Source: Terriglobia bacterium (GTDB taxonomy: Bacteria > Acidobacteriota > Terriglobia > Bryobacterales > Bryobacteraceae). From it: a stretch of DNA of 64,000 nucleotides. How positions within the stretch are numbered: the first letter of the stretch is position 1; each line of letters opens with the position of its first letter. A program made the translations under genes and the position numbers. Positions 9,409 to 37,677 of the stretch are shown in pieces. Below the pieces are notes generated by a model. That model did not search any database and was not told the DNA's origin. It worked only from the letters and a program-made list of their open reading frames with translations. Location of the stretch: the NCBI GenBank assembly GCA_016650235.1, contig JAENWC010000305.1, forward strand, positions 1-64,000. Direction: 5' to 3'.

Positions 9409-9900
9409 TCAAAAAAGGCGCATAGTCATTGTGGCAAGGTTTGCGGCAAACGCCGCCACGGTGGAATAAAACGCCAAGAACATGAATGCGGACTTTTTTT
9501 TGTTGATAGCGCCATTGGTCTGTATTCTTTGCTTCGCCGATGAAAATCTTGCTGCTGGTAGTCCGGGTATCTCCACGTCTGGATACTGTTTCCTGTACTC
9601 ATCTAATCCGGCAATCCACACCTCATACTCGTCAGGCATTGCCTCTCTCATGTAGTCGCGCGGCCACAGCTCAATCGCGCAAAAAATTCCACCCAAGACG
9701 ATAAACGCGATTGACAGCGCTTGGAGTATGAATTGAGCGCGCGGCAATGGGGGCGTTGAGGCCATAAGGCTGCTGGACTGAATGGCCAAGAATGTCAGTC
9801 CGGCCAGGAGTAACCCGGTCTTCATGTCAAGCGTGTCGCCAAGAGAAAACTCAATACGGTCTCTCTCGAAGACGTATTCTGAAAGGTCGTTCTGTCCCAT
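9409..9900 (-). CDS. Small three-helix membrane protein (transposon passenger)
   Basis: A 163-residue protein with a charged N-terminal stretch of about 30 residues (MGQNDLSEYVFERDRIEFSL). It has hydrophobic helices at about 31-50 (LLLAGLTFLAIQSSSLM), 60-83 (LSIAFIVLGGIFCAIEL) and 138-160 (FMFLAFYSTVAAFAANLATM), with a soluble segment between the second and third. The layout resembles SLATT/S-4TM-like membrane effectors of bacterial conflict systems, but the match is by architecture only. The start at 9900 has GGAG 8 bases upstream. It is transcribed divergently from the DUF3800 gene, with a strong hairpin between them. Confidence 0.65.
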   Translation of the reverse strand: MGQNDLSEYVFERDRIEFSLGDTLDMKTGLLLAGLTFLAIQSSSLMASTPPLPRAQFILQALSIAFIVLGGIFCAIELWPRDYMREAMPDEYEVWIAGLDEYRKQYPDVEIPGLPAARFSSAKQRIQTNGAINKKKSAFMFLAFYSTVAAFAANLATMTMRLF

Positions 9901-9912
9901 TGGGCAAACTCC

Positions 9913-10051
9913 GTGATACACTCTATCCTGACAGGCAGAGTGAGAAATGTTTTAGACTGGCCCTACGCGCTGTGGATGCTTGGCGGCGAAACAGCGTGAA
10001 AGCCCCTTTCCGGTGGGCTAGTCGTAGTGTATCACGACTACGGCGGAAAGG
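9913..10051. promoter_or_regulatory. Structured divergent intergenic region with nested hairpin
   Basis: Between the divergent membrane-protein and DUF3800 genes lies a nested hairpin. The outer arms CCTTTCCG (10005-10012) and CGGAAAGG (10044-10051) enclose inner arms TAGTCGT (10019-10025) and ACGACTA (10034-10040). The loop and its flank (AGTGTATCAC, 10026-10035) are also the exact inverted complement of GTGATACACT at 9913-9922, beside the membrane-protein start. This could be an operator or a regulatory RNA; nothing in the sequence decides which. Confidence 0.5.
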
Positions 10052-10130
10052 CCGCGTGCAACCTGTTTTTGCTGCTTTCAAGCCCAGATGGAACGACCAA
10101 ATACCTGAACGCTTTAGGGGGCTGCCTCGC

Positions 10131-10955
10131 ATGAAGGTTTGCTACTGCGACGAAAGTGGAACGGGCGATGAGCCAATCGCGGTTATGGTGGGGATTTTGG
10201 TTGATTGTCAGCGCATGCACATCACTAAGGATCACTGGAAGAACTTGCTCGATCAGCTTTCTGAGATGACCGGCAAGACCGTAACGGAGATACACACCCG
10301 AGATTTCTACGCGGGGAACGGTCCCTGGAGAAACCTGGATGGTCCCCTGCGGGCGCGCATCATAGCGACTATTTTTGAATGGCTCCGAGACCGAAAACAT
10401 CACGTCGTATACACTTCGGTTTGCAAAACGTCCTATCATTCAAACTTTGCGCTTCAGCGCATCCCGGATGAGTTGAACACGATATGGCGGTTCTTGGGAT
10501 TTCATCTTGTGTTGGCGATCCAAAAGTATTGCCAAAAGGAACCTAAAAACAAAGGACACACGTTCTTCGTCTTCGACAACGAGAACAGAGAGGAGATGCG
10601 CTTTACCGACATCATCTGTCATCCGCGTGCGTGGAGTGATAATTACTATGGTCGGGCAAAGAAGCAATCTCAACTCGATCAAGTCGTGGATGTGCCGTAT
10701 TTTGGAGACTCGACCGATGTCTCACTTATTCAAGTGGCCGACTTCGCGGCATACTTTCTCCGTCGCTACGCGGAGATCAAGGAAGGGTTAATCCCCGCCC
10801 GATATACCGAAGAAGAGCACCGCATAGACGGCTGGATGGAAGTGTTTACAGAACGAAGCATCGGCACGTCGATGATGTATCCAAAAGTTGGCAGAAATTC
10901 GGCAGAAGCATTATTTTTTGACAATGCTTCCACCTCGATTCGATCTCTTGCATAA
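10131..10955 (+). CDS. DUF3800 domain protein (transposon passenger)
   Basis: A 274-residue protein. The N-terminal MKVCYCDESGTGDEPIAVMV carries the conserved DES motif of DUF3800, and the C-terminal DVSLIQVADFAAYFLRR carries the conserved QxADxxAY-type motif; a FVFDNENREE segment lies between them. DUF3800 proteins are predicted to have an RNase H-like fold and are frequent in mobile and defence regions; no activity is established for this subgroup. The start at 10131 was chosen because the domain begins immediately there and the DNA before it forms a hairpin rather than coding sequence. Confidence 0.8.
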   Translation: MKVCYCDESGTGDEPIAVMVGILVDCQRMHITKDHWKNLLDQLSEMTGKTVTEIHTRDFYAGNGPWRNLDGPLRARIIATIFEWLRDRKHHVVYTSVCKTSYHSNFALQRIPDELNTIWRFLGFHLVLAIQKYCQKEPKNKGHTFFVFDNENREEMRFTDIICHPRAWSDNYYGRAKKQSQLDQVVDVPYFGDSTDVSLIQVADFAAYFLRRYAEIKEGLIPARYTEEEHRIDGWMEVFTERSIGTSMMYPKVGRNSAEALFFDNASTSIRSLA

Positions 10956-11030
10956 TGGTGGTATGAAGACTGGAACGGGCGGACATAATCGAAGGCACGG
11001 AGGCGTTTGAGCGCTTCGGTGAAGCAGCGA

Positions 11031-12197
11031 TTATCGATTACCTTTGGCCCGATTGTGGGTAATGCAGAGCATTTGGCAGTTCTCAGTCGAACTTCCGCCG
11101 CCCATACTCCATGCTGCAACGTGGTCTGCGTCCATTTCGTCGAGCTTATAAATTCTGCTCTTGTTCGTATTGTTCCCAATCGCGCAAAGCGGACAGTTTG
11201 ATTGGCCGTTGCCCTCGGCTGCTTGCGTCTGCTTAGCGTATTCCACCCGCTTTACCAGAGTTTCGAAGACCCGGACCTCCAACAACTTTGTATCGAGCGA
11301 ACCACCCAAGAGATACTCGAAAATTCCCTTGCGCTTCGTGACGCAGGGATCGGCGGAGAGCCTTTTTACGTCGTTCGAAATATCCTTTGGACCGTAGGCT
11401 TTTCCGTGATACTCCTCGTACAGCCTGCCCCACTCCAATCCCTTCATTTCCGGGAGAATATCGATAAACACTGTCGAAACCCAGTCGATCACGCTATTGA
11501 AGTAGGTCTTCAACTCGTTGATATTGGTGTCGCTACGATGAGCGCTCATATAGCCGCCGATATCGTCTTTGCTTACCCAGTCAAACGCACGCTCCAGGAA
11601 CTCCTGCCTGTTCACGTTGCCATTTATGTACGCACTCCACTTCTGGATGTTCGCGTTCTGGCTGTTGCTGAACTCGGCCTTCGCAAGCGTCACGAACGGC
11701 CCAGAATAGATGGCATTCAAGCGCTCTTGTGGTTCTAGTTTCACGCCAGCGATGTTAATGGTCTCGAACCAATCTTTGATCTCCTTTTCGAGCCCTTCGC
11801 ATTCGTAAATCAGAAGCATTGAGTTTTGAATCACGGCTCGTTGGTCGGCGGGCAGGCTGTCGAAGTACTTCGGATTGCCGCCGTCCATGATCGCGAACTT
11901 GTTCGTGACGAATCGTCCGATACTAGTGATTCGTTGCTGTCCGTCCAACACCTCGAACTTGTCCTCGCCGACTTTATTGAAGTAGATCAGCCCGAGCGGA
12001 TACTTCTTCAGCAGTGAGTGGACCACATCCTGCTCTTTTTTTCCGCCACTTTGGGCATAGATGTAGTTTCGCTGGTACTCTGGCTGGATGGTGAGCTTCC
12101 CGCCCAGTCCGAACAAACCCTTGCCCTCCAATTGGTTGTACACAAACCCGGCGCAGATGTCGGCGACGGTAATGTCGATTCTCAGCGCAGTTTTCAC
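11031..12197 (-). CDS. DUF262 (GmrS/ParB-like) plus HNH nuclease protein, restriction partner
   Basis: A 388-residue protein. The N-terminal DUF262 domain shows the nucleotide-binding motif [14 protein letters not shown] near residue 85 and an early [11 protein letters not shown] segment. The C-terminal HNH nuclease shows the zinc pair [13 protein letters not shown] and [17 protein letters not shown]262 is the nucleotide-sensing half of GmrSD-type modified-DNA restriction enzymes, and such proteins also occur as restriction partners of methylases. It starts with GTG at 12197, overlapping the methylase stop by 4 bp (GTGA). That coupling argues that the two form one restriction-modification unit. 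Confidence 0.85.
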
Positions 12198-13429
12198 TTT
12201 TTCTTCCCCCGTGCGCGCTGGGTACGGCGCTGGATGAAGATTCTCTTGTATTGCTGGATGTAATGTTCGCCGTCCACGATGTAGTAGGTCTGGTCTGTCG
12301 GGGGTCGATCCACCTTGATCGCTGCGCCGTCGTTGAGCTTGGTAACCTTGCTTCTCTTTCCTGACTTGTCGACTTGAACTTGTATCTCGTACTTCCTTGT
12401 CTGCAACTGATAGCTTTTTTCGTATCCAAGAATCTCGAACTGGTCGGGGTTGTGCTTGGCGAGGAAGGTGACGGGGACGCCCATCATTCCGTCGTAGTCG
12501 CTGGCAATCTCCTTGTATGTGCCAACCTCAATGGCGTCGTAATTGTCGTAACGGTCGTAAGCCGCCTTTCCTCTCAGGTTCTTACTGAACCGCAAGTTGT
12601 CCGCCATGGTCATGAGATTCAGCGGATTGTGGCGGCGACCGTGGTCCAAGTTCGTGTACCAGCACGACGTTGAAACGCGCGCTATTTTCCTGCCCGTCTC
12701 CTTGTCAATGTGGTGAAAGTGCTCCCACTCGTCCGGCACCTCGAAAAACATCCCAACATTGAAATTCGTGCAGCCGAGCCACAGTCTGTTGTCCTTGATG
12801 AGCGGAAAGATCTCTTTGTAGGTGATCGAATTGGTGTTCCCGATGACCAGGAACTTCTTCCCGTGTTCCACGAGCAGGGCGACGTATTCGCGGAAGAGGG
12901 AGAAGGGCGGGTTGGTGACCACGATGTCCGCGTCTTTCAGGAGCGCAACGCACTCGGCGCTGCGGAAATCGCCACCGGGATACTGGTCGTCTGTCTTCAA
13001 GGCAATTCGAGCGGCCTTGTTGCGCTTGAGGAAGAGCTTCACGTCGTCTATGTTCGCCGCGCCGTCTCCGTCCTCGTCTTTCACGTGGTCGAGAGTAACG
13101 GCGAGGGCCTTGGGCTTCTGGCGCTTGCCATTCCCCTCGTTGTATTCCGGGAACAAGGTCCCCTGCCCAGCAATGGGGGAGCCGTCGTAACTAGTGGTGA
13201 TTAGCTTTTTGAGACCGAGCTTGTTGAAGTTGGCGGCGAAGTACTTGAAGAAGTTGCTCTCGAACGGGTCGTCGCAGTTACAGTAGACGATCTTGCTGCG
13301 GAAGGTGTCGGGGTCGAATTCAAGGTAGGACTCTACCTCTTTTTGAATATCGACATACTGGGTGTAGAACTCGTCCTGCTTGGCTGCCTTAGCTTTGCCT
13401 AGACTTTCGTTTTTTGTTTTATCGGCCAT
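12194..13429 (-). CDS. EcoRI-type adenine-specific DNA methyltransferase
   Basis: A 411-residue protein matching the EcoRI methylase family. The N-terminal [20 protein letters not shown] segment and the catalytic motif [14 protein letters not shown] (near residue 168) are visible, with [16 protein letters not shown] after it. These enzymes transfer a methyl group from S-adenosylmethionine to adenine N6 in a specific DNA site. The recognition site cannot be deduced here. The gene lies directly upstream of the DUF262/HNH gene, with overlapping stop and start. An inverted repeat GCCGA/TCGGC (about 13437-13451) just before the start could regulate expression. Confidence 0.88.
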
Positions 13430-13518
13430 TGTTATGCCGATTCTTTCGGCGTTTTCCGCGTGAAGGCTAAGAGCATTTCTAGTGTTTTTTTCCTCGCATC
13501 TGCCGCTTTCCTTCCTTC

Positions 13519-14481
13519 TCAGTTAAGGCACGTTTGCGCGTCCATCTGCTTGCCGGTGAGTTGATCGAATGTGAGCCGCTTGCCGACGATCCCCTTAACG
13601 GCCAAGTCGAACCGCTCCGCATCGGTCATCCGGCGATTGTTGAACCGATAGACTTGCTCATCGAGATAACGGAACAAGTGGAACGGTTCGACCGAAACGT
13701 AGGTGCCTTTCAGGCCGCGCTTGAGTAGCGACCAAAAGTTCTCAAGGCCGTTGGTGTGGATTTTGCCATCCACGTACTGGACGGCATGGTCAACTACCTG
13801 ATGCTCAAACTCTGTGAGTCCATCGTAGGATTTCAGCGCATCGGTGTATAGAGCGCTACCGACCTCAACATGCTTACGAACTTCCGGCTGAAGCGCTTTC
13901 TTCTTTGTGTTCGGGACAACGGTAGTGCGGACCTTGCTCGCGTTGCCATCTTTGCCGCGCTCAAGAATTCCCATGACGGCAGTCTTGTCCTTCCCGCCAG
14001 TGCCGGTGATGCGAATGGCCCGCTTCCAAGCGTGCATGTTCCGGGCTTTGCCACCGATGAAGGTTTCGTCGGCTTCCACATGGCCGGACAACTTATCGGG
14101 CGTTCCGATGCCCAACATGCATCGGATTCGATGATCCATAAACCATGCCGATTTCTGGGTGATCCCGATGGCCCGAGCAATTTCACAACTGCTCACGCCG
14201 TTCTTACAATTCACAAGCAGCCACATGGCGGTAAGCCACTTGTCCAGACCGATGGGGGAGTCTTCCATAGGGGTTCCGGTCTTCAGGGTGAACTGCGGTG
14301 CGCCGTGGCCCGCCCTACACTGCCAACGGTTGTACTTCTCAAGGAAGAGAATATCCTTGCTCCCGCAACGCGGACATGTCACGCCGTCAGGCCAGCGCCG
14401 CGCTACCACGTGCTCACGGCAGTTTGCCGGATTCGAGAAGTAGACGATGGCTTCTTGAAGTGTGGTTGGCTCTTGTTCCAT
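13519..14481 (-). CDS. IS1595 family transposase
   Basis: A 320-residue transposase. The N-terminal zinc ribbon (CPRCGSKDILFLEKYNRWQC) is followed by a helix-turn-helix region. The catalytic core shows ADETFIGGK near residue 140, LYTDALKSYDGL near 215 and HTNGLENFWSLLKRGLKG near 245, the DDN/E pattern of IS1595. It lies 26 bp inside the right inverted repeat and is complete, so the element may still be active. Codon use and GC are closer to the host than those of the passengers. Confidence 0.95.
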   Translation of the reverse strand: MEQEPTTLQEAIVYFSNPANCREHVVARRWPDGVTCPRCGSKDILFLEKYNRWQCRAGHGAPQFTLKTGTPMEDSPIGLDKWLTAMWLLVNCKNGVSSCEIARAIGITQKSAWFMDHRIRCMLGIGTPDKLSGHVEADETFIGGKARNMHAWKRAIRITGTGGKDKTAVMGILERGKDGNASKVRTTVVPNTKKKALQPEVRKHVEVGSALYTDALKSYDGLTEFEHQVVDHAVQYVDGKIHTNGLENFWSLLKRGLKGTYVSVEPFHLFRYLDEQVYRFNNRRMTDAERFDLAVKGIVGKRLTFDQLTGKQMDAQTCLN

Positions 14482-29229: not shown

Positions 29230-29922
29230 TTACCGGACCATGGATTCAAGTTTCTCCAGCCATTGATTGAAGTGTGGGCATTCGGCTCGAATACGCGGCA
29301 GACCGATCTCCAGCACAGCCAGCGTGCCGAGAAGCGGCTTCTGATACCCGGGCAAAAGGGCCTCAACGCGTTTGGATGGCGCCTTATCCGGCGAATCATT
29401 GATTTCTTCCGGAGTTGAAAACCCGTCTCGAATCGCCATGAAATCGTCTTCCAGATCTGAGCGGCCGATAGCCTTGCTGAACGCGGCGCAGTCACTAAAG
29501 AGTAGCCCCTCGAACTCATGCATCACGATAAAGGGGACGAAGCGCTCAGGATATGGTTGGTTGCCCATTTCGGCGACCACATCCTCCAGCATGGCTGCTT
29601 CCACGAATCGCGCCCGTTCAACGGAACCTTGCCCACTGACTGATGCGCGTCCCGGCCACGCCGCTCCTCCTTCACGGGGCAAACCATAATAATCGACCAT
29701 CGTGCTCGCGATACAACTCGGATCCTCCTTGAGGTGATTGGTAATGTCCCTTCTCACAGAACGCCACGGTCGAATTCCGCCGCGCTTGGACCTGAGACGA
29801 GCATTCCCTAAAATTCGAGGGTCAACGGCGTCGTATCCGTTGGCCACCAAGTGATCCCGAAGCACTTCGTTTACGAAGGTTTCCTCCGTCAGACCTTCGA
29901 CATGGATTAAGAGACGGGCCAT
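29230..29922 (-). CDS. DUF4276 protein, probable TOPRIM-like partner of the ATPase
   Basis: A 230-residue protein. It opens with LLIHVEGLTEETFVNEVLRD, whose VEGxTE glutamate resembles a TOPRIM motif. MVDYYGLP (acidic motif) follows at about residue 76, then VMHEFEGLLFSDCAAFSKAI near 135. DUF4276 proteins are usually encoded beside an AAA ATPase, as here, where the ATPase gene ends 9 bp upstream. By analogy with OLD-family and PARIS ATPase/TOPRIM pairs the two may form an anti-phage system in which this protein is the nuclease; that role is inferred. Confidence 0.8.
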   Translation of the reverse strand: MARLLIHVEGLTEETFVNEVLRDHLVANGYDAVDPRILGNARLRSKRGGIRPWRSVRRDITNHLKEDPSCIASTMVDYYGLPREGGAAWPGRASVSGQGSVERARFVEAAMLEDVVAEMGNQPYPERFVPFIVMHEFEGLLFSDCAAFSKAIGRSDLEDDFMAIRDGFSTPEEINDSPDKAPSKRVEALLPGYQKPLLGTLAVLEIGLPRIRAECPHFNQWLEKLESMVR

Positions 29923-29931
29923 TCGTTTAAT

Positions 29932-31056
29932 TTAGTCCCGAAGTGGCCGTCCGCCAAGTTCATTCTTTTCCCAAAGCTGACCGAGACTGTACTCCTCCAG
30001 CCATGTCGTCAAGCGCTTTGAGTCCAGCCGCGTGATTTGCGTTCCATCGTCGACACGGTTGGCGACCAGAACGTCCTCGGGTTCAAAATGATCAAGCAGC
30101 AGGGAAGACTGGGTGGAAACAATCACCTGGGTGTTCACCGATGCCTGCCGAATGAGCGAAGCCAGCATCTCGATGGCATAAGGATGCAACCCCAACTCAG
30201 GTTCATCCACAAGGATTACGGAAGGTAGGTATTTCTTTGGCTGCAGAAAAAGAGTTGCCAATGCAATGAAGCGGAGGGTGCCGTCGGAAAGCGACGATGC
30301 GTCGAAGTATTGATCCGACTTCCTGTGCCGCCACTCCAGCTTGATGTCGTCAGGCATGAGCTTGAGAGGCTTTAGCCGGAAGTCATCGAAGAACGGAGCT
30401 ACCCGCTGCACGGTCCGTTGAATCAAGCTGTAAGAGTCATCATGCTTTTCCCGGAGATAATAGAGGAATGCTGCCAGGTTCGACCCATCCGCACGCAAGA
30501 ACTCGTTGTCATTCACCTTCGCTGTTTTGCGCATAGGCGATGAGAAGCTTGTGTCGTGAACGTGGTAGAGCCTCCAACTTCCAAGGCGCTTACGGACCCA
30601 ACCCGCGATGCGCTGGTCGTTTATTGGATCGCTGATGCCTGCTTCTCTTCCCTGCTGCCATGCCGACAGAGATGTGTTGCATGGTTCGTCGTAGCCCTTC
30701 GTCTTGTCCCAAAAGTAGGGTATCTCTGCAGATGGGAACAGCCCATCATCACTGGTTGGAGAGAGCGTTAGCTCGTATTGATTCACCTCGTTTTCGAACG
30801 AAAGGAAAAAGGTGATCGCTTTCGTCACTTTCGAACCAAAGTGCAGTATCTTCTCAGCCCCACCCGCCGCAATGACGTATTCCTGCAGCCTTCCTTCTCG
30901 AATCGCGTGGAGAAAGGCAAAGGCGCCAATGAAGTTCGACTTCCCGGAGCCGTTTGGACCGATGAGCACGTTAATTGGCCGCAGCGGCAGCTTCTCCACC
31001 GAAGCGATGCTCTTGAAGCCCTGAATTGTGATGTAGTCGAGTGCGCTTGAGGGCAT
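29932..31056 (-). CDS. AAA family ATPase (AAA_21, OLD-like), partner of DUF4276
   Basis: A 374-residue SMC-like ATPase. The N-terminus begins YITIQGFKSIASVEKLPLRP, with Walker A LIGPNGSGKSNFIGAF near residue 32. The C-terminal part has the signature-like SSLSDGTLRFIALATLFLQP and Walker B SVILVDEPELGLHPYAIEML near 285, followed by QVIVSTQSSLLLDHFEPEDV. There is no coiled-coil arm long enough for a chromosomal SMC. Such ATPases are the sensor subunit of several two-gene defence systems. Translation of the downstream DUF4276 gene begins after only 9 bp. Confidence 0.88.
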   Translation of the reverse strand: MPSSALDYITIQGFKSIASVEKLPLRPINVLIGPNGSGKSNFIGAFAFLHAIREGRLQEYVIAAGGAEKILHFGSKVTKAITFFLSFENEVNQYELTLSPTSDDGLFPSAEIPYFWDKTKGYDEPCNTSLSAWQQGREAGISDPINDQRIAGWVRKRLGSWRLYHVHDTSFSSPMRKTAKVNDNEFLRADGSNLAAFLYYLREKHDDSYSLIQRTVQRVAPFFDDFRLKPLKLMPDDIKLEWRHRKSDQYFDASSLSDGTLRFIALATLFLQPKKYLPSVILVDEPELGLHPYAIEMLASLIRQASVNTQVIVSTQSSLLLDHFEPEDVLVANRVDDGTQITRLDSKRLTTWLEEYSLGQLWEKNELGGRPLRD

Positions 31057-31216: not shown

Positions 31217-31424
31217 TTAGGCGCCGTTCTTCTGCAAGTGCTCCGGCAGACGCCGCCTGCCGTCTTCGGCATCGGCCTTGCCATAGCTGGGCCGGTAGTC
31301 GGCGCGGAAGTCGTGCTGCGCATCCGGATAGACGATGACCTCGGAGCCCTTCTTGCCCGCAACCTTCAAAGCTTCGCACATCTTTTCCACCTATTCGGGC
31401 GGAATGCCCTGACTTTTCGCGCTC

Positions 31425-31487
31425 TCAGCCGACTTTCAACAGCATCTCTTCGGCATCCGCCCCGGTCAGCCGCGGCGCTCTAGGCAT
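31425..31487 (-). pseudogene. hicA: Truncated hicA toxin gene
   Basis: The sequence MPRAPRLTGADAEEMLLKVG followed by a stop matches the first 20 residues of HicA mRNA-interferase toxins; the expected tryptophan codon after VG is TGA. The rest of HicA, with the catalytic histidine, is absent because the hydrolase remnant begins shortly after. Its start overlaps the end of hicB, the usual layout. Confidence 0.6.
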
Positions 31488-31701
31488 GGACTTCGACGGC
31501 GGTGGTGAGAATCTCCTGGCTCAGAGCCGCCGAGCGTTCGTCATCGGCCAGGGTCTCCAGGAAGAGTTCAATTGCCTCACGGATATTGGCAAGAGCCTCC
31601 TCGACCGTCTTCCCTTGCGATTGGCATCCCTTTAGTTCCGGGCACCAAGCGTAACATCCGTGCTCGTCCTGTTCGATTACAACACTGACCTTGCGCGTCA
31701 T
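31480..31701 (-). CDS. hicB: HicB family antitoxin, orphaned
   Basis: A 73-residue protein with the partial RNase H-like fold of HicB: VSVVIEQDEHGCYAWCPELK, GCQSQGKTVEEALANIREAI, and a short helical tail. It normally neutralises the HicA toxin. The hicA gene behind it is only a 20-codon stub, so the antitoxin is now without partner in this place. The ATG at 31701 has AGGA 9 bases upstream. The whole module sits inside a duplicated fragment of the neighbouring hydrolase gene. Confidence 0.85.
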   Translation of the reverse strand: MTRKVSVVIEQDEHGCYAWCPELKGCQSQGKTVEEALANIREAIELFLETLADDERSAALSQEILTTAVEVHA

Positions 31702-31926
31702 CTCCCATCATCCTGCCACGGCGCGACACCGGGTGTTCTGATGCTTCGGAGTGTTCATGCTGGAATGTCCAACCAGACGCCCGTACCAAGTCACACCGGA
31801 GCTTCACTACCGCGGACTCTTCGGTTCGCCGTTGTAACCGGCCCTTTATCGCGCGGGGGGGGGGCGCATGCCTTCGGCGTTTTCACTGGGCCAGTCTGTG
31901 CTCAGTTCGTGAGCAGCGGGTCCAGG

Positions 31927-31938: not shown

Positions 31939-32148
31939 ATGTCCGGCGCGGAAATCCAGATCGTTTCCAACGAGGCCGGGGAGCCGACCGCGGTGATTGT
32001 TCCGATCGGCCTCTGGCGGGAGATCCAATCCGAGCGGGAAACAGCCTACCTGCTCAAGTCGGATAGCATGAAGCAGCGCCTGCTCGAAGCGAAACAACGC
32101 CAGGAAGGGCTTTCCATCGAGGCAGTCGTTGAAAAGTTTGGAATTTGA
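31939..32148 (+). CDS. Phd/YefM-like antitoxin
   Basis: A 69-residue protein beginning MSGAEIQIVSNEAGEPTAVI, followed by VPIGLWREIQSERETAYLLKS. The end is a helical RLLEAKQRQEGLSIEAVVEK segment, in keeping with Phd/YefM-type antitoxins in which the tail binds the toxin. The toxin gene overlaps its 3' end by 20 bp, the standard antitoxin-first order. Such antitoxins repress their own promoter. The exact antitoxin subfamily is uncertain. Confidence 0.8.
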   Translation: MSGAEIQIVSNEAGEPTAVIVPIGLWREIQSERETAYLLKSDSMKQRLLEAKQRQEGLSIEAVVEKFGI

Positions 32149-32386
32149 TCCATCGGCCTTCGAGGATCTCGCTTGGTGGATCGAAAAAGATCGCGCCCAG
32201 GCACTCCGGATCATTCGGCTGGTTCGTGAAATCCACAAAGAACCATTCTCAGGCCTTGGTAAACCTGAGCCATTAAAACGCGAACTCTCGGGGTGTTGGT
32301 CGAGACGGATCAATCTGGAGCACCGGCTCGTTTATCAGGTATTGCCGGATCGGATACGCATTCTGGCTTGCCGATTCCACTACTGA
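32129..32386 (+). CDS. yoeB: Txe/YoeB family toxin
   Basis: An 85-residue RelE-fold mRNA interferase. The sequence FEDLAWWIEKDRAQALRIIR and the C-terminal hallmark blocks PFSGLGKPEPLKRELSGCWS, RRINLEHRLVYQV and ILACRFHY match YoeB, including the catalytic His-Tyr end. YoeB cuts mRNA at the ribosomal A site. No ATG is available; TTG at 32129 inside the antitoxin gene is the likely start (another TTG is at 32138). The toxin appears intact. Confidence 0.9.
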   Translation: MKSLEFDPSAFEDLAWWIEKDRAQALRIIRLVREIHKEPFSGLGKPEPLKRELSGCWSRRINLEHRLVYQVLPDRIRILACRFHY

Positions 32387-32731: not shown

Positions 32732-33604
32732 TTAAGCGCCGTTCTTCTTGAAGTGCTCCAGCAGCCGCCGCCAACCGTCTTCCGCATCCGCCTTACCGTA
32801 GCTCGGCCGGTAGTCGGCATGGAAGCCGTGCTGCGCCTCCGGATACACAATGATCTCGGATCCCTTCTTCCCCGCAGCCTTCAAAGCTTCGCGCATCTTT
32901 TCCACCGTATCAAGCGGAATGCCCTGATCCTTGCCGCCATATAGGCCGAGCACCGGGCCGTGCAAGCTGGCCGCGACATCAATAGGATGCTTCGGATTGT
33001 TCTCGCTCGGCTGCCCCACCAGCCGCCCGTACCAGGCCACTCCAGCTTTCAATTTCGGATTATGCGCCGAGTACAACCACACGACGCGCCCTCCCCAACA
33101 GAATCCCGTAATCCCGAGCTTCGACACGTTCGCCTTGCCGGTCTTGCCGGCCCAGGCCACCGCCGCGTCCAGGTCCGACATCACCTGTCCGTCGGGTACC
33201 TTTGAGACCACCTTCGAGATGATGTCCGGCACGCTCGATAGATTGCTGACGTCCCCCTGCCGCGCGTACATCTCCGGAGCAATGGCCAGATAGCCCGCCT
33301 TGGCGAAACGACGGCAGATGTCCTTGATATGCTCGTGGACCCCGAAAATCTCCTGCACCACAAGCGCCACCGGGAACCTCGATCCCTTGGCGGGCATTGC
33401 GCGGTAGGCCGGAATCTCGCCGTCCTTCACCGGAATCTTGACCTCCCCGGCAACCAGTCCATCGGTTGCGGTGGTGATGGTTTGCGGCGTCACCGGCTGT
33501 ACGGCAAGCGCGAAACCTGCCGCAAGCTTGGTCACAAAGAACTCCCGCCGGTTGTGTTCCACGACGGGTAGGAGGCTGGCAATGTCGGATTGATGGGTTG
33601 ACAT
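32732..33604 (-). CDS. Dienelactone hydrolase family protein, exported
   Basis: A 290-residue alpha/beta hydrolase. The N-terminus contains [20 protein letters not shown], a twin-arginine-like export signal. The nucleophile is the cysteine in [18 protein letters not shown], with the acid in [11 protein letters not shown] and histidine in [18 protein letters not shown], the Cys-Asp-His triad of dienelactone hydrolases. It ends with the [11 protein letters not shown] segment that is duplicated in the remnant at 31217. The start at 33604 is chosen because further upstream sequence is not typical of the family. The substrate is unknown. Confidence 0.88.
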
Positions 33605-36215: not shown

Positions 36216-36929
36216 ATGTCCGTCTTTGTGCCCAATCGTGGTCCCGGCCGCTTAATTGTTGTAGAGGGAATCGACGGCTCCGGCAAATCCACCCAGATAT
36301 CTCTACTCTCCCAGTGGCTGCGCGCGCGCGGGTACGCCGTGGCGTTCAGTGAATGGAACTCTTCTCCCATGGTCTGCGAAACGACGCGAAGAGGCAAGAA
36401 GAAAGAGATGTTCACGCCCACCACGTTCAGCTTGATTCACGCAACCGATTTCGCGGATCGGCTGGAGCGTTACGTTGTCCCGCTGCTCAAGGCGGGCGCC
36501 GTGGTGTGCGCCGACCGGTACGCCTACACGGCATTCGCGCGCGACGTGGTGCGAGGGGTGGATCGTTCTTGGGTGCGTAATTTGTACCGGTTCGCGCTGA
36601 AGCCCCATCTGGTATTTTATTTCAAGACTCCGCTGGAGGTGGCGCTGGGACGCATCCTCGGCGGCAGACATGCTTTGAAGTACTACGAAGCTGGAATGGA
36701 CCTGGACCTGAGCCGGAACATCGAAGAGAGCTTCCGGATTTTTCAGGGCCGGATTCTGGCCGAATACGAGTCCATGATTGAAGAGATGGGCTTTCACGTA
36801 ATCGATGCCACCAAATCCATTCAGGCACAACAAAGAGAGATGCGGAGCATTGTGATTCGAGAGTTCGGCTCCAGGCGGCCGGCGGGAGTATTGGGAACGG
36901 AGGGCGGAATTGCGCGATTACGCAAATAA
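36216..36929 (+). CDS. Thymidylate kinase-like protein, first of a tandem pair
   Basis: A 237-residue P-loop nucleoside-monophosphate kinase. Walker A is VEGIDGSGKSTQISLL (about residues 16-31). The DRY-type substrate motif lies in VCADRYAYTAFARDVVRG near 105. The protein is longer than ordinary Tmk (about 210) and the lid region (PTTFSLIHATDFADRLE) is unusual. Tmk makes dTDP from dTMP, but this branch may use another substrate. It is divergent from ppx-CHAD and overlaps a second, related gene. Confidence 0.8.
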   Translation: MSVFVPNRGPGRLIVVEGIDGSGKSTQISLLSQWLRARGYAVAFSEWNSSPMVCETTRRGKKKEMFTPTTFSLIHATDFADRLERYVVPLLKAGAVVCADRYAYTAFARDVVRGVDRSWVRNLYRFALKPHLVFYFKTPLEVALGRILGGRHALKYYEAGMDLDLSRNIEESFRIFQGRILAEYESMIEEMGFHVIDATKSIQAQQREMRSIVIREFGSRRPAGVLGTEGGIARLRK

Positions 36930-37677
36930 GGAGCCGCTGTCCTACTACATGACGGAGCTTCCCGGCATCGACTATTCCAGTCTGCAAGGCCGGTTGATTG
37001 TCATCGAAGGGCCCGATGCGGTGGGGCGCAGCACGCAGATCCGCCGCCTCAAAGCGTGGCTGGAGGATATGGGTCACGCCGTGCTGGATACGGAAATGGC
37101 CCGCTCGGCGCTTGCGGGCAAAGGCATCAAAGAGGCCAAACTGGGTAACACGCTCGGGCCGATCACCATGACGCTGTACTACATGACGGACTTCGCGGAC
37201 CGGCTCGAAAACGAAATCATTCCGGCACTGCGCGCCGGTTTCGTGGTGCTGACGGATCGCTACATTTTCTCCATCATGGCGCGCGCGATTGCCCGCGGCG
37301 AGAATCGCACCTGGATCGAGCATGCCGCCGGCTTTGCCCTCGTCCCGCACGCGGTCTTCTACCTGCGCGCCGAGGTGAAGGACCTGATCTCGCGTGTAGC
37401 CGTGGGGCGGGGACAGTTCGACTATTGGGAGAGCGGCATGGACCTGCGCTTCGGACGCGACATGTTTGACAGCTTCGTGCATTACCAGGCGCGGTTGATC
37501 CGCGTGTTCGATCAACTGGCTGGGCCGTACCAGTTTGAAGTAGTCGATGCCAAGCGCCCGCCCGGTATTGTGCTGGATACCCTTAAGGCGTCCATCGAGC
37601 GCGTTTTTAAGGCGACTCCCACCGGAACCGGAAAGCGCAAGAAGCTGCGGCGAGGCGCTCTCCCGGCCCGGGGTTGA
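36910..37677 (+). CDS. Thymidylate kinase-like protein, second of a tandem pair, altered P-loop
   Basis: A 255-residue paralogue of the preceding gene. The Walker A region reads IEGPDAVGRSTQIRRL (about residues 32-47), with arginine in place of the invariant lysine; the DRY-type motif TDRYIFSIMARAIARG and the MTDFADRLENEI segment are kept. The Lys-to-Arg change usually weakens phosphate transfer, so it may be a regulatory or binding subunit. The start is uncertain: TTG at 36910 has GGAGG upstream and overlaps the first gene by 20 bp; ATG at 36949 is the alternative. Confidence 0.78.
   Translation: MRDYANKEPLSYYMTELPGIDYSSLQGRLIVIEGPDAVGRSTQIRRLKAWLEDMGHAVLDTEMARSALAGKGIKEAKLGNTLGPITMTLYYMTDFADRLENEIIPALRAGFVVLTDRYIFSIMARAIARGENRTWIEHAAGFALVPHAVFYLRAEVKDLISRVAVGRGQFDYWESGMDLRFGRDMFDSFVHYQARLIRVFDQLAGPYQFEVVDAKRPPGIVLDTLKASIERVFKATPTGTGKRKKLRRGALPARG

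Follow-up and report, generated by a model that had tools for sequence, protein, structure and literature searches.

According to published accounts, OLD-type ABC ATPases and their TOPRIM partners form a recurring theme around BREX (PMC12839542). In PARIS, the trigger is described as being detected by AriA, and AriB as being freed as a dimer that cuts host tRNAs (PMC12409363). The catalytic site of Bp OLD is described as binding metal A through E400 and D455, with D457 holding the metal-A waters, and metal B through E508 assisted by E404 and T506, with K562 promoting processive cleavage (PMC6755086). HEC, which stands for Hma-embedded candidate, is the name of candidate systems discovered via "guilt by embedding" (PMC12988326, PMC11411939), and one of these reports states an antiviral effect for several HECs, naming HEC-06 among them (PMC12988326). 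HEC-01 is listed in a further report as a defence subtype detected with DefenseFinder in Desulfovibrio piger (PMC12724379). No antiviral assay of HEC-01 itself was found in the literature searched, which excluded the preprint naming the HECs, and the literature library searched contains no paper that mentions DUF4276 or PF14103.

The locus compared here with these systems lies in a window of 64,000 nucleotides, by which we mean the whole stretch of DNA analysed, from a Terriglobia bacterium whose draft genome (6.08 Mb in 562 contigs) carries one DUF4276 gene. Both genes are on the minus strand. Gene A (29932-31056), the upstream gene of the pair, encodes an ABC-type ATPase of 374 aa, presumed to be the sensor, and gene B (29230-29922) encodes a DUF4276 protein of 230 aa with a predicted TOPRIM-like fold, presumed to be the nuclease effector. 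The ORF list places them 9 bp apart, confirming the order of ATPase and DUF4276 gene that the original prediction had given for 29230-31056. Against Pfam, A matched AAA_21 (PF13304, 9.9e-36), with weaker matches to SMC_N, AAA_15 and DUF2813, and B matched DUF4276 (5.6e-48) with the whole profile covered. In PADLOC-DB, A matched HEC-01A (PDLC04175, 5.8e-139) over residues 1-371 of 374 and B matched HEC-01B (PDLC04188, 2.9e-70) over residues 1-228 of 230, both judged by E-value, with no curated cut-off given for PADLOC models. At E 1, HEC-01B was the sole PADLOC match of B and DUF4276 its sole Pfam match, with no AriB model among them. The pair is already catalogued as the candidate system HEC-01, and the copy in the window is a further member and not a new kind; the original prediction of a candidate defence pair was right in substance, but it had been anticipated by the entry in PADLOC-DB.

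Structure prediction from 68 sequences resulted in a model of B with a pLDDT of 93.2 and a pTM of 0.90, in which helices are interspersed between strands 3-8, 32-37 and 70-77 and a helical part comes after them. The best two PDB matches of this model in Foldseek were the OLD C-terminal regions 6njx (E 2.5e-3) and 6nk8 (E 2.8e-3), and none of the 693 matches was at E 0.001 or better. A structural aligner ranked 6nk8, an OLD TOPRIM region, first (Z 9.6, rmsd 4.5, 174 aligned), followed by 2p62, a Pyrococcus hypothetical protein (Z 9.0), and by 6njw (8.6), 6njv (8.5) and 6njx (8.3); the OLD match exceeds the unrelated rows by one to two Z units. PARIS AriB aligned with a Z of 7.5, level with unrelated folds, and its fold match is thus unconvincing by itself. 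When a profile of B (68 sequences) was compared with one of five OLD TOPRIM sequences, the probability was 15.7 and the VEG motif alone aligned, so that B is joined to OLD TOPRIM by the fold match and not by sequence. A search of PDB sequences found no relative of B, its two matches (E 0.51 and 0.84) being taken as chance. Other families meant for comparison were rare, DUF4435 being present in 2 and RloB in none of the 99 genomes. Taken together, the confident model predicts a TOPRIM core fold for B, with OLD TOPRIM regions ranking first, and the TOPRIM core on which the original prediction had been staked is therefore present in the predicted structure.

The conserved residues of B were compared with the OLD site in an alignment of 68 sequences, comprising the 67 of 68 rows that passed the length filter and the window protein itself (L106 was left out for a wrong start). 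The VEGxTE motif pointed out in the original prediction is present as VEGLTE at residues 8-13 (29884-29901, minus strand), and its E9 and E13, the counterparts of OLD E400 and E404, are found in 68/68. E9, which corresponds to the invariant Glu after strand 1 of TOPRIM, is placed near OLD residue 400 because the aligned ranges begin at B residue 1 and OLD residue 392. After strand 3, at the position of the TOPRIM DxD motif, B reads D77-Y78-Y79 (29686-29694, minus strand) and the DxD motif itself is absent; D77 is conserved in 66 and Y79 in 67 of the 68 sequences, the exceptions being D77G in L047 and L082 and Y79S in L089. At this place, DxY occurs in 19, DxD in 7 and DxE in 1 of 27 diverse DUF4276 proteins, a split suggesting that Y79 occupies the position of the second Asp. 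E136-F137-E138 (29509-29517, minus strand) lies at the start of helix 137-143, with both Glu residues, the counterparts of OLD T506 and E508, invariant (68/68). For K195 (29338-29340, minus strand; 67/68), the position in this order and the distance to the C-terminus are the sole grounds for a possible correspondence to OLD K562. The spacings are also equal, that of E9/E13 being 4 as in E400/E404 and that of E136/E138 being 2 as in T506/E508. Judged by order, spacing and fold coverage, E9/E13, D77, E136/E138 and K195 come in the same order as in the two-metal site of OLD and constitute a candidate metal site. Of the acidic site originally proposed, most residues are thus present and conserved, but in this branch Tyr replaces the second Asp of DxD. 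Because of this failed DxD test, we describe B as TOPRIM-like in fold and not as a canonical TOPRIM enzyme.

The same Tyr raises the alternative that B, while being TOPRIM-like in fold, has no nuclease activity in this branch and serves as a structural or nucleotide-binding partner. We regard this as quite unlikely, since the predominance of DxY in both the diverse and the close sets and the D77G substitutions, which would favor it, are set against the invariance of E9, E13, E136 and E138 and the near-invariance of K195, and against the description, in the Bp OLD report, of a second Asp that contacts metal A solely through waters and of single substitutions that are tolerated (PMC6755086). In a divergent DUF4276 branch (L021-L027), which also lies beside an ATPase gene, VEEPSxE is found instead of VEGxTE together with a canonical VDxD, and this branch may represent another subtype, with a chemistry of its own.

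The model of A (pLDDT 95.4) gave retron and Septu PtuA as the first Foldseek matches, and in the structural aligner SMC and Rad50 heads were at the top (from Z 21.6 down), with AriA at Z 18.5; the best PDB sequence match was the OLD protein 6p74 (3.2e-12). Conservation was assessed in 66 sequences (65 of 72 rows passing the length filter, and the window protein). In Walker A, GPNGSGKSN at residues 33-41 (30934-30960, minus strand), G33, N35, G38 and K39 are found in 66/66. SDG at residues 257-259 (30280-30288, minus strand; S in 65/66, D and G in 66/66 each) resembles the ABC signature motif, which we take it to be from its position. Walker B and the residues following it, DEPELGLHP at 284-292 (30181-30207, minus strand), are invariant except for L288 (64/66). 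TQS at residues 315-317 (30106-30114, minus strand; 66/66) lies where ABC proteins have the switch loop and, from this position, presumably has that role. A C-terminal tail at residues 358-371 (29944-29985, minus strand) is also strongly conserved (W362 in 66/66; G359, L361, G369 and P371 in 65/66), and it may be possible that this tail docks B. A is a compact ABC head of the SMC/Rad50 type with its ATPase motifs intact in the 66 sequences.

The two genes were found together far beyond chance. In the window's phylum, for which 30 of 95 listed DUF4276 places were taken, an ATPase gene was directly upstream on the same strand in 29 of the 30 loci, the 30th (L005) being at a contig end. Among the 83 loci collected by B, A was adjacent in 81 (80 scored by script and L106 added by inspection), the exceptions being L077, with an insert, and L113, at a contig edge. 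These counts supply the neighbourhood statistics for DUF4276-AAA pairs proposed as a check in the original prediction, and they bear out the pairing. In L077, from a Bryobacterales bin, about 2.4 kb of inserted DNA carrying a helix-turn-helix-like ORF splits B (L077:1850-4266). Over the 56 loci in which both genes were usable, the distances of A and B were correlated with an r of 0.82, which was reached in 0 of 999 permutations (maximum 0.285) and fits the expectation for genes travelling together. Furthermore, both genes look to be under selection by comparison with the nearest relative, L033: pN/pS is 0.129/0.689 in A and 0.197/0.813 in B, and synonymous sites are close to saturated in this comparison.

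The pair has its nearest relatives in Acidobacteriota, and its presence there is patchy. Of 396 genomes from the window's phylum, 55 have DUF4276. Among the 61 genomes of closest relatives, B was present in 17, one of them being the genome of the window, but it was absent from the single genome of the same genus that was searched. Several copies were broken, with split frames or stops (G405:C163, G397:C189, G438:C82 and G443:C130), a pattern often seen in defence genes with gain and loss. In relatives, the stretches examined at six kinase and at four hydrolase loci contained neither A nor B. The A and B tree of the same 56 loci carries 16 phylum labels and requires 25 label changes, where 15 would be the minimum; mislabelled bins and hidden paralogues may inflate this number. 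The GC3 values of A (0.643) and B (0.593) lie below the mean of 0.744 (sd 0.031) of 12 large ORFs in the window. B is carried by twelve plasmid records; a mobilizable Acinetobacter plasmid of 11 kb has the pair next to VapBC with no further evident partner gene, so that the two genes may be sufficient. On a Mu-like phage contig (with a Mu-like transposase, a CI-like repressor, an endolysin and a terminase) the pair sits between the repressor and the endolysin. The whole pair was present on two of three viral contigs found; no relative of B was found among 50,697 phage records. The pair crosses phyla by horizontal spread, riding plasmids and a Mu-like phage.

This distribution bears on the alternative of a chromosomal role in DNA repair or housekeeping, with the pair being a RecF/Rad50-like ATPase with a processing nuclease and no defence role. 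SMC and Rad50 heads are the closest folds of A, and a report on an archaeal OLD-family ATPase describes a role in cell cycle progression and not in antiviral defence (PMC12796447). The patchy presence, the lack of the pair in the same-genus genome, the broken copies in relatives, the mixing of phylum labels on the tree, the atypical GC3 and the plasmid carriage all argue against such a role, and we consider it highly improbable.

The order on an Aeromonas plasmid was SNF2-related protein, A, B and DNA methyltransferase. In the relatives, for which 10 flanking proteins chosen out of 154 neighbours were identified, the pair was flanked by an Eco57I-type methylase and a helicase in L099 and L107 and had a methylase upstream in L110 and L103, and no methylase-helicase embedding was seen in L098 and L101. 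Embedding as expected of HEC-01, in loci resembling the Hma type with its helicase, methylase and ATPase, is found in relatives (L099, L107 and the Aeromonas plasmid). As a rough measure, PADLOC searches at 1e-10 gave 43 families in the 77 genes neighbouring L031-L073, 246 families in the 77 genes neighbouring L074-L112 and 9 families in a control of 52 other window genes, these being counts of families and not of members (largest member count, 3/77) for neighbours taken by a simple longest-ORF rule, with a control that is not clean because the window holds restriction-modification genes itself. Over the 154 neighbours, non-defence genes were in the majority, and the defence share was lower in the half nearest the window.

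These neighbourhoods also bear on the alternative that the pair is an addiction or self-maintenance module, in which A holds a toxic nuclease, B, and carrier stability is the main selected role with phage exclusion secondary; this departs from a defence role in purpose more than in mechanism. A two-gene unit that always travels together, its carriage by plasmids and phage, and the VapBC adjoining it on one plasmid would suit such a module. Embedding in methylase-helicase operons suits defence better, and ABC ATPases are larger than the usual antitoxins. We regard an addiction module as unlikely.

The window copy of the pair stands alone, outside any Hma or RM operon, among genes for an FGGY kinase, toxin-antitoxin genes and a dienelactone hydrolase. 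Upstream of A are an orphan hicB (31480-31701) and, on the opposite strand to A, a yefM-yoeB pair (31939-32386, plus strand; YoeB 1.2e-31, YefM a weak 0.0014). Also upstream of A is a decayed copy of the 3' part of the dienelactone hydrolase gene, matching it in two blocks (31217-31412 and 32732-32927, 196 nt, 86%; 31740-31797 and 32986-33043, 58 nt, 79%), and the orphan hicB seems to interrupt this copy. The site beside the pair is rearranged, which is no proof of a defence role for the pair. The adjacent toxin-antitoxin debris had been taken as support for a defence or mobile setting, and this argument proved weak: YoeB, with a family match over its whole length, looks intact and not like debris, HicB is an orphan, and nothing links either to the pair. 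Better support comes from the methylase-helicase embedding, the plasmid and phage carriage and the atypical GC3. Elsewhere in the window, a stretch of lower GC (9792-14481) contains a DUF3800 gene and genes for a GmrSD_N-domain protein (11034-12197), a methylase of the EcoRI family (12197-13429) and a transposase of the IS1595 type (13522-14481), and it is probably a separate restriction-modification island. Two overlapping tandem genes on the plus strand (36216-36929 and 36910-37677) have the look of thymidylate-kinase-type P-loop proteins, as judged from their translations.

In our view the pair is probably a defence module of the HEC-01 type that is complete with its two genes and is organised like a split OLD nuclease or PARIS. 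For such a module we infer an A-B complex, a nuclease activity of B, a trigger, DNA or RNA as the target and an antiviral effect, with PARIS AriA/AriB as the precedent. In the complex, A would hold B and, through its ATP state, respond to a cue from an invading phage or plasmid, sensing the invasion either directly or by way of an altered state of the cell. B, as a putative two-metal nuclease of TOPRIM fold, would stay inactive until A changes state and would then be freed or switched, cutting DNA or RNA by two-metal catalysis; this cleavage would stop the invader, possibly by stopping the cell. The points in favor are the HEC-01 matches of both genes, the OLD fold matches of B, the conserved ATPase and candidate metal-site residues, the constant pairing with correlated distances, the patchy presence with broken copies, the low GC3, the plasmid and phage carriage, the methylase-helicase embedding in some relatives and the PARIS precedent. 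The points against a defence module are the DxY motif, D77G in 2/68, the lack of a Foldseek match at E 0.001, the low profile probability, the mostly non-defence neighbours of the closest relatives and the absence of B from the phage records searched.

A more specific proposal, which we offer as a tentative and rather doubtful one, is that DUF4276/HEC-01B represents a distinct class of split-OLD effector. It would be a stand-alone TOPRIM-fold nuclease with DxY as the first-metal motif and a fixed ExE on the next helix, partnered with an ABC head that has an invariant TQS and a B-docking tail; it is spread over many phyla, plasmids and a Mu-like phage, and may cut RNA like AriB. If this is true, HEC-01 would be a second RNA-targeting ABC/TOPRIM immune system. 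Genome scanners count HEC-01 as defence, and the OLD-like TOPRIM fold with its candidate metal site makes DUF4276 a testable nuclease.

Among the known systems, MADS is the one suggested by the top NCBIfam match of A, MAD3 (1.3e-32); the score of 113.5 bits falls short of the curated cut-off, which is 420, so that A is not a MAD3, and no MADS operon surrounds the pair. Septu and retrons resemble the pair through PtuA, which leads the Foldseek matches of A, and differ from it in that the partner of PtuA, according to PDB titles, is the HNH nuclease PtuB and not a TOPRIM-fold protein. With OLD and GajA, the pair shares the best fold match of B, the OLD TOPRIM region, together with the matching candidate two-metal site, and the top PDB sequence match of A; it differs in that the ATPase and TOPRIM-like parts are separate ORFs, whereas they are one protein in OLD and Gabija, and in the DxY of B where OLD has DxD. 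No UvrD-like helicase (GajB, class 2) lies beside the window pair. PARIS is like the pair in having an ABC ATPase and a stand-alone TOPRIM-fold protein as two genes, so that the two-gene logic anticipated from PARIS is indeed held in common, and AriA and AriB are both among the fold matches; A, however, matched an AriA model only at 1.4e-33 against 5.8e-139 for HEC-01A, and B had no AriB match. It is HEC-01 whose models both window genes match best by far, and although the window copy is solitary, relatives of the pair are embedded in methylase-helicase operons. HEC-01 thus adds a split ATPase/TOPRIM system for comparison with PARIS and Gabija.
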